In this document: piece after piece, positions 15,595 to 17,506 of the stretch
How positions within the stretch are numbered: position 1 is the first letter of the stretch
Layout of the letters: every line of letters starts with the position of its first letter
NCBI RefSeq assembly: GCF_000702425.1
Contig: NZ_JNIE01000002.1
Span: 124,001 to 188,000, forward strand
From: Thermocrinis jamiesonii
GTDB lineage: Bacteria; Aquificota; Aquificia; Aquificales; Aquificaceae
DNA length: 64,000 nucleotides
Reading direction: 5' to 3'
Notes under the pieces: model-generated
Told to the model about the DNA's origin: nothing
Database searches by the model: none
What the model saw: the letters and a program-made list of their open reading frames with translations, nothing else
Translations under genes and position numbers: made by a program

Positions 15595-16302
15595 ATGAAG
15601 CGAATTATAGTAATACCGTCAAGGTTGGGGTCTACGAGACTTAAGGAAAAGCCTTTACAGCTAATAAATGGCAAACCTCTTGTAAGGTGGGTGGCGGAAG
15701 GGTGTTTGAAAACTGGGGAGGAGGTGGTCCTTGCTACAGACAGTGAAAGGATAGCTGAGGTGGTTCAAGACTTACCCATCAGAATAATATTCACTCCTTC
15801 TGACCTTCCTTCTGGAAGCGACAGGACAGCTTACGCCCTAAAATACGTAGAGGCAGATTACGTGATAAACTATCAAGGTGATGAACCCTTTGTTTATAAA
15901 GAGGACGTAGAAAGGCTTTTTTGTGCTTTGGATGAGTATCCTGTTGCTACCCTTGCCATACATGACCCCACCGCATACGACAACCCTTCCTGCGTAAAGG
16001 TAGTCCTGGACGAAAACCAAAATGCTCTATACTTTTCCAGAAGTCCTATACCTTACATGAAAAAACACCTTTCATTCTATCCTCTAAAGCACGTAGGCAT
16101 CTATGCCTTCAGAAGAGATGTTCTTATGGACTTTGTCAGATGGGAACCATCAACCTTAGAAAGGCTTGAGTCCTTAGAACAACTGAGACTCTTAGAGAAA
16201 GGGGTAAAGATAAAAGTCCTTCTCAGCTCAAATTACTATCACGGCGTTGATACAGAAGAGGACCTAAAGCTTGTAGCCCAAAAGCTCACTTTTTACTCTT
16301 AA
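15595..16302 (+). CDS. kdsB: 3-deoxy-manno-octulosonate cytidylyltransferase
   Basis: Activates Kdo as CMP-Kdo for lipid A-core assembly, which marks this as an LPS-bearing cell. The nucleotide-binding start [18 protein letters not shown], then [17 protein letters not shown] and YFSRSPIPY with [11 protein letters not shown] are all KdsB signatures. At 235 residues it is slightly shorter than E. coli (248). It follows the WecA-like gene by 12 bases in the same direction. Its 3' end overlaps the convergent IscS-like gene by 17 bases. Confidence 0.94.
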
Positions 16303-17506
16303 TATACTGCTCCCAGTTCTCCGGATTGAAAGGAGATAGCTCTCTTAGCAGTTTTACGGTCTTTGGAAATTCTTCCGCCACATAATCCACATCCTCTTCC
16401 GTGTTGTCTCTTCCAAAGCTAAAGACCAAAGAACCGTTTGCCACTTCCTTGGGAACTCCTATGGCAAAAAGCACGTGGGATTGTTTTAAAGCTAAAGACA
16501 CACAAGCGGACCCAGAGGCAGTTTCCACACCCATAAGGTCAAGCCTCAAAAGCATAGCTTCTCCTTCTATAAGATGGACAATCAAAGAAAGGTGATGAGG
16601 AAGCCTTTGGGTAGGATGTCCAGTAAATTCTATGTAGTCAAGTTTTTCCTCTATGGCTTTTTTAAGTTTGTCTCTGTAATAGGAAAGCCTTGTCATTCTG
16701 TCCTCTAATTCCTTTTGGGCAAGCTCTGCCGCCGCACCAAAACCCACTATGCCCGGCACATTTTCTGTTCCAGCTCTGACTCCCCTTTCCTGCGTTCCAC
16801 CTTCAATGAGAGGTCGGATCTTCACACCCTTTCTGGTCCATAAGGCACCCACCCCTTTTGGTCCATACATCAGATGGGCTGTAAAGGATGCACAATCCAC
16901 ACCCCACTCTTGAAGATTAACGGGGTAGTGCCCTAAGGTAGGACAGGCGTCTGTATGGAAGATCACCCTTGGATTCTTTTCCTTTGCAGCTTCTACTAAT
17001 TCCTTAATATTCTGTATCGTTCCTATTTCTCTGTTTGAATGGCCTATGCTTACCAAAACTGTGTCGCTTCTGATTGCCTCGGCAAGTTGGTCTTTGTGTA
17101 TAAGCCCATACTTGTCTGGCTTTAGGTATGTTACTTCCCACCCTTCCTTTTCCAAGCTTTTGAGAGGATGAAGTATGGAGTGATGTTCTATTTCGGTAGA
17201 AACAATGTGTCTTCCTCTTTTTTCGTAAGCCTTAGCTATACCTTTTATAGCAAGGTTGTTAGCCTCTATACCGCCCGATGTGAATATGATCTCATCCGGA
17301 GAGTTGGCACCTATCAAAGAAGCCAATTTTTCTCTTGCTTCGTTTATAGCTTTTTTCGCTATCTGACCAAAACTGTGTAAAGATGTAGGATTACCAAAGT
17401 GTTCCCTAAAATAGGGAAGCATAGCCTCCAGCACCTCTTGTGCTACTGGCGTGGTCGCTATGTGATCCAAATAAACAACTCTCTTGCCAAGCTTTTTTAT
17501 AAACAT
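16286..17506 (-). CDS. IscS/NifS-like cysteine desulfurase family protein lacking the PLP lysine
   Basis: A 406-residue fold-type I aminotransferase-class protein clearly related to IscS/Nif[10 protein letters not shown] start, [28 protein letters not shown] and the mobile-loop SGSAC with C335. The position of the PLP Schiff-base lysine, SAHK in IscS, reads [10 protein letters not shown], so Leu212 replaces Lys. Other cofactor contacts also differ: the Gln after HTDA is Pro189, and the phosphate-binding Thr is Ile80. The substrate cysteine C335, D186 and H211 remain. It therefore may not desulfurate cysteine in the standard way. It is three bases downstream of the apbC gene in one operon, pointing to Fe-S assembly. 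Family membership is sure; activity is not. Confidence 0.85.

Follow-up and report, generated by a model that had tools for sequence, protein, structure and literature searches.

An IscS homolog lacking the PLP lysine in Thermocrinis jamiesonii and a TusA-linked class of apparently desulfurase-dead IscS proteins

Can an IscS that has lost the PLP lysine still serve Fe-S cluster assembly, and where would its sulfur come from? The question is raised by an iscS-like gene in a 64,000-nucleotide stretch of Thermocrinis jamiesonii DNA (the window; contig 2, positions 124001-188000, of a 1.32 Mb genome that is 99.98% complete). The gene occupies 16286..17506 on the minus strand and encodes a 406-aa protein of the class V aminotransferase fold family that is predicted to be dead as a desulfurase. 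The protein matches Pfam PF00266 at 8e-80 and the NifS, IscS and DndA models at 1e-143 to 1e-104. It falls below the NCBIfam equivalog cut-offs for NifS (478.5 of 530.75 bits) and IscS (388 of 643.2), and the sole NCBIfam cut-off that it passes is that of the loose PRK02948 subfamily (325 vs. 304).

Compared to live enzymes, six active-site positions of the window IscS are changed, all encoded on the minus strand. The lysine that forms the Schiff base with PLP (E. coli Lys206), present in 99/99 live comparison loci, is Leu212 (codon CTG, 16871..16873, plus-strand letters 'cag'), adjoining His211 (CAT, 16874-16876, plus-strand 'atg'). Pro189 (CCT, 16940..16942, after HTDAC) replaces the PLP-contacting Gln (E. 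coli Gln183), and Val361 (GTC, 16424..16426, in GSLVFSFGR) replaces the conserved active-site Arg (E. coli Arg354); these three positions were equated with those of E. coli by an alignment offset of 6-7. Ile80 (17267..17269, in FTSGGIE) takes the place of a phosphate-binding Thr, Arg159 (17030..17032) that of an Asn near-invariant in live enzymes (HSNREIG vs. NNEIG), and Ile16 (17459..17461) that of the Ala, Asn, His or Ser of live enzymes. The mobile-loop persulfide cysteine, Cys335 (TGT, 16502..16504, in SGSACVS; E. coli Cys328), is kept, as are Asp186 and His108, both invariant features of live enzymes. A sequence-only reading of the window had named Leu212, Pro189 and Ile80 as replaced and Asp186, His211 and Cys335 as retained, and our alignment agrees at each position, with the codons of Leu212, Pro189 and Cys335 read on the DNA; Ile16, Arg159 and Val361, replacements of the same kind, had escaped it.

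The loss of Lys, Gln and Arg together supports the view of that reading that desulfurase chemistry has been lost, and the window IscS is probably without PLP-based desulfurase activity. E. coli IscS K206A and Q183E are without desulfurase activity, and R354K stayed active (PMC9978102); because of the latter, the effect of Val at position 361 is presumptive.

The non-canonical site is fixed in the family. Orthologues or homologues were found in 20/30 genera of the phylum in a search of 136 genomes. Leu stands at position 212 in every Aquificaceae orthologue examined, and the 14-site string D/I/T/I/H/G/R/D/P/T/H/L/C/V is identical in 48/49 further Aquificaceae orthologues, the remaining one differing at one other site. 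Hydrogenothermaceae orthologues examined, at 65% identity, have Tyr at the lysine site (TGHYFYAPKG). Across the Aquificaceae the frames are open at full length and 75-94% identical, which argues for purifying selection; judging from these comparisons, the site is evidently being maintained rather than decaying. A pseudogene is ruled out, as iscS is full-length and conserved in the family, and so is a sequencing error, the objection that the sequence-only reading had itself foreseen, since Leu is fixed family-wide and a change from Lys to Leu takes at least two base changes.

A lysine-less IscS is in itself a known kind of protein, with solved orthologues already in the PDB. Entry 9wfy ('cysteine desulfurase', 406 aa), from another genus, is 83% identical to the window IscS over its full length and has the same I16, I80, R159, P189, L212 and V361; it is the IscS of a same-family genome in our set (G001; 405/405 compared residues identical). 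Relative to 9wfy, 9wfe carries R159N and L212K, 9wfb adds V361R, 9wf8 adds P189Q, 9wew adds I80T and 9wer adds I16A, and 9wep has nine changes, adding G155M, A188V and T209S as read from the alignment. These stepwise reversions suggest that someone is rebuilding the PLP site step by step. No publication on the 9wfy series was found in the open-licence literature.

We also examined whether other Fe-S machinery in this genome could stand in for the lost enzyme. Above the family cut-off, PF00266 is matched by the window IscS, an alanine-glyoxylate-aminotransferase-like enzyme (L003) and the glycine decarboxylase P subunit (L004), the latter two assigned by reading their sequences. No other IscS/SufS-type desulfurase is found among these matches, and the second, lysine-bearing IscS for which the sequence-only reading had proposed a search is thus absent by that measure. 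A SUF system in place of ISC is ruled out by the absence of a SufB/D core protein, as PF01458 has no match in this genome and matches all 14 control genomes. The SMS system of Methanocaldococcus jannaschii (SmsCB), which assembles Fe-S clusters without a cysteine desulfurase and with sulfide as the source (PMC12192291), differs in having a SufBC-type scaffold. Nor does the genome fit the MIS system, defined as a minimal desulfurase plus scaffold with no carrier (PMC12192291), as its desulfurase site is lost and both Mrp, in the window, and an Nfu-type gene are present. The genome does encode one IscU, with CGNPACGD, FGCGS and KIHC motifs and the Cys/Asp/His/Cys residues intact.

The closest precedent is Archaeoglobus fulgidus IscS, in which Lys is replaced by Asp, desulfurase activity is lacking and the loop Cys is a [2Fe-2S] ligand (PMC7585200), and the sequence-only reading was right to draw the parallel. 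A. fulgidus IscS2 (4eb5, 4eb7 and 4hvk; 4r5f is D199K) and the window IscS have both lost the PLP Lys, Gln and Arg and kept the loop Cys; each has an IscU partner, here encoded in the genome and in Hydrogenothermaceae adjoining iscS, and A. fulgidus too is a sulfidic anaerobe. However, A. fulgidus IscS2 is only 44% identical, has Asp in an SSND motif in place of Leu and Asn at the position of His211, and belongs to a separate archaeal clade. According to its published description, Methanosarcina acetivorans IscS1, also archaeal, has no catalytic lysine either (PMC7585200).

A scan of genome contigs with an alignment of A. fulgidus and Aquificales sequences recovered many lysine-less IscS proteins, with Asp at the lysine site in archaea and a few bacteria, Gln in Thermodesulfovibrio, Dehalococcoidia and Syntrophomonadaceae, Pro or Ala in Desulfobacterales, Val in Endomicrobium, Leu in Geothermincola, and Arg elsewhere. 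On a tree calculated without the active-site columns, the lysine state changes twice, once in the archaeal group of A. fulgidus and once in the bacterial group to which the window IscS belongs; on a second tree this bacterial group has an SH-aLRT of 98 and includes a few loci that keep Lys but have lost Gln and Arg. A single lysine-less clade shared with A. fulgidus was rejected, as both trees give two groups, although the AU test is only moderately against it (p = 0.033). The window IscS is therefore not simply the A. fulgidus protein again, nor the peculiarity of one thermophile that the sequence-only reading implied, but a member of what appears to be a new, broad desulfurase-dead class comprising one bacterial clade that spans several phyla and one archaeal clade. 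For annotation this is a warning that numerous genes labelled 'cysteine desulfurase' cannot encode such an enzyme.

The loci within the bacterial group that keep the lysine (L303-L307 and L321) have lost Gln189 and Arg361, have TusA adjoining and are possible intermediates of loss. They make the loss of Gln and Arg the common denominator of the class, after which the lysine site drifts; loss of Lys with Arg kept was seen in 0/182 loci.

What surrounds these genes bears on the source of sulfur. In the window, mrp/apbC, encoding a NUBPL-type Fe-S carrier P-loop ATPase (17510..18535, minus strand), lies 3 bp upstream of iscS, and the two genes adjoin each other in 29/30 Aquificaceae loci and likewise in those examined from Hydrogenothermaceae. 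Hydrogenothermaceae have mrp-iscS-iscU-PPloop-tusA together in one gene run, and Aquificaceae have mrp-iscS at one locus and iscU-PPloop-tusA at another. TusA is present at 47/49 Aquificota IscU loci, the two without it being contig ends. In this genome, iscU, a PP-loop gene, tusA and the genes for a 78-aa protein (DUF), an Nfu-like protein and AroE form one run in which the ends overlap or abut; the Nfu-like and aroE genes were assigned by reading, and their Hydrogenothermaceae equivalents match Pfam NifU and shikimate dehydrogenase. Five TusA genes were found in the genome, one of them, confirmed by Pfam, tied to iscU. Another of the five lies in the window at about 49551-49781 on the minus strand and begins MADRELDIKGEVCPFTFVKS.

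TusA linkage was then counted more widely. Among 182 distinct loci from two samples combined, which include paralogues from the same genomes, a TusA-family gene lies within 1.6 kb of IscS on the same strand in 69/83 where Arg361 is lost vs. 1/99 where it is kept, and in 70/84 where Gln189 is lost vs. 0/98 where it is kept. The first sample had TusA at 20/25 lysine-less (non-Aquificota) loci vs. 1/53 lysine-bearing ones, or 14/17 vs. 0/40 with flanks controlled. In the second, drawn from the phylum of a Thermodesulfovibrio genome, the figures were 42/47 lysine-less vs. 6/23 lysine-bearing loci; all six of the latter had lost Arg361, and a split by Arg361 gives 48/53 lost vs. 0/17 kept. The archaeal sample had TusA at 27/30 dead vs. 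0/20 live IscS loci, with the order TusA-DsrE-IscS-IscU at 18 loci. Linkage to TusA is not a by-product of linkage to IscU, since it holds among IscU-linked loci only (62/70 with Arg361 lost vs. 1/54 kept), nor does it come from the use of an HMM trained on its own hits, since a rerun with the TusA paralogues of this genome matched only three live loci: L080, L265 (weakly) and L340 (beyond the distance limit). In the Arg361 split, L080 is the single locus with a live IscS and TusA, and a dead IscS is present in tandem. This Hydrothermarchaeota contig carries dead IscS, tusA, live IscS and IscU one after another at 2574-5197.

TusA lies upstream of the dead iscS in 41 cases and downstream in 28, so the linkage has probably been rebuilt more than once. 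Active-site traits change only about 2-4 times on the tree and TusA 12 times, leaving 1-3 independent pairs, too few for an independent-pairs test to yield a p-value, so Fisher p-values greatly overstate the association. The weight is carried instead by two separate clades with the same partner, by both gene orders and by the lack of TusA beside live paralogues of the same genomes. The CPxP/CPxH cysteine of TusA is present in all but one distinct case. DsrE/DsrE_2, Rrf2 and rubrerythrin also occur among the neighboring genes by Pfam. No paper describing a TusA-linked dead IscS was found among the open-licence literature, and as far as that search reaches the class appears to be undescribed.

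In E. coli, Cys19 of TusA lies about 4 Å from Cys328 of IscS (PMC2854127), and one IscS dimer can seat TusA and IscU together (PMC11302665). The partner families are the same here, but the E. coli IscS is a live PLP enzyme that gives sulfur to TusA, and tusA there serves the tRNA and Moco pathways. Where no desulfurase operates, that geometry would most simply serve a reverse flow, from TusA persulfide to IscS Cys335 to IscU. We consider it somewhat more probable than the contrary that the dead IscS now serves IscU as a persulfide relay or cluster-ligand platform and draws its sulfur from TusA or sulfide, not from cysteine. The window IscS, having lost Lys, Gln and Arg, would thus have given up desulfurase chemistry but retained the body of IscS, its mobile-loop cysteine and its partnership with IscU, which would build [2Fe-2S] clusters on this platform. 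Cys335 would accept sulfur as a persulfide and/or serve as a transient cluster ligand in the manner of A. fulgidus. A carrier of the TusA type, joined by DsrE in many relatives, would dock on IscS and pass sulfur towards IscS/IscU, opposite to E. coli; free sulfide may feed the same Cys335 site, and finished clusters would be carried onward by Mrp/ApbC and Nfu. We infer the relay, the direction of flow and the physical contact of TusA with IscS from gene neighborhoods and the E. coli structure.

Three observations sit uneasily with a TusA-fed platform. In Aquificaceae, tusA belongs to the iscU operon instead of lying next to iscS, and it adjoins a PP-loop gene of the kind associated with tRNA thiolation. 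At L152 (5121-5423), the TusA next to a dead IscS of the Gln type has Tyr in place of the catalytic CPxP cysteine (GLYYPMP). Finally, at an A. fulgidus-like locus (L371, 99.7% identical to 4eb5) DsrE is present, but no TusA was seen within 1.5 kb.

The alternative that survives best, although we think it unlikely, is that the dead IscS is a structural and cluster-ligand subunit for IscU with sulfide as the direct donor, and that TusA belongs to another pathway. It has the A. fulgidus precedent (PMC7585200) and the ability of sulfide to support Fe-S biogenesis in desulfurase-free systems (PMC12192291) on its side, and the PP-loop gene that TusA adjoins in Aquificota is ThiI/MnmA-like with an NFACT-R_2 domain. 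Outside the Aquificota, however, TusA is linked to iscS-iscU without a PP-loop gene, in two separate clades and in both orders, and DsrE, with which TusA is paired in sulfur relays, is often present at these loci too. The sequence-only reading had raised a sulfide-dependent scaffold as a possibility; the genomic evidence suggests a TusA carrier, with or without DsrE, at least as much as free sulfide, and a TusA relay may operate alongside a route in which free sulfide is the donor and Cys335 no more than a ligand.

It is improbable that the protein is a pseudoenzyme with a regulatory or moonlighting role, binding IscU or Mrp but having no part in sulfur handling. Pseudoenzymes often retain little more than partner-binding surfaces, and mrp is a constant neighbor of iscS, but the loop cysteine is kept in every dead IscS with a readable position, 82/82 in the combined set of 182 loci, whether the lysine site holds Q, D, P, A, V, R, E, M, N, I, L or Y, which argues for a role of the thiol.

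His108, which stacks on PLP, and Asp186, which contacts PLP N1, are invariant in 83/83 dead loci. A ligand-free pocket does not account for this, a further point against the persulfide relay or platform as set out above, and the pocket of dead IscS may still bind a ligand. That the invariance marks a cryptic desulfurase, with PLP held non-covalently or another residue replacing the lysine at 212 and cysteine slowly desulfurated, is the least credible reading and a very improbable one: E. coli K206A does retain some bound PLP (PMC9978102), and Tyr, Gln, Asp, Glu, Arg, Pro and Leu are all found at the lysine site, but Gln and Arg are lost along with Lys, A. fulgidus IscS reportedly lacks desulfurase activity (PMC7585200), and the PDB series of up to nine reversions implies that the wild type was evidently judged to lack the site.

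Returning to the TusA-fed platform, its wider form is a cysteine-independent Fe-S assembly in which a dedicated TusA, often paired with DsrE, supplies sulfane sulfur to dead IscS and IscU, and which arose at least twice, in archaea and in bacteria; to this we give slightly less than an even chance. If true, a system that reverses the E. coli flow from IscS to TusA would be in use from Aquificota and Thermodesulfovibrionales to Desulfobacterales, Chloroflexota and methanogens. In anaerobes and in sulfidic thermophiles that have no working desulfurase, the source of cluster sulfur is usually given as 'sulfide, somehow'. The signature described here, in which Lys, Gln and Arg are lost together, the loop Cys is kept and TusA, often with DsrE, is gained, allows a direct test with named proteins.

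Counted by hand in 32 Aquificaceae genomes at least 97% complete, PF00266 matches at 1e-20 number two in 24 genomes (as here), three in 7 and one in 1. Of the seven genomes with three, three have a live lysine-bearing enzyme (L347, L348 and L350) and four (G029, G036, G028 and G051) have a second, more degraded IscS-like paralogue without the lysine (L343-L346), with DGPSLLGPQG at the lysine motif and a diverged C-terminal half that still has a cysteine in the loop region (SSPC). Neither an IscS-like match at 1e-10 nor one to IscU was found in G105-G120 and further genomes of three other families of the phylum (f3-f5), up to 99% complete, so these families must use another Fe-S system.

Two smaller features of the locus may be recorded. 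The Mrp/ApbC proteins of this order (window 17510-18535; L009-L037 and L190-L199) read CP[DEG][ST], with CPDN in two and APDT in one, in place of the CxxC motif by which ApbC binds its Fe-S cluster, so one or both cluster cysteines are missing. The 3' end of iscS overlaps by 17 bases (16286-16302) that of a plus-strand open reading frame at 15595-16302.
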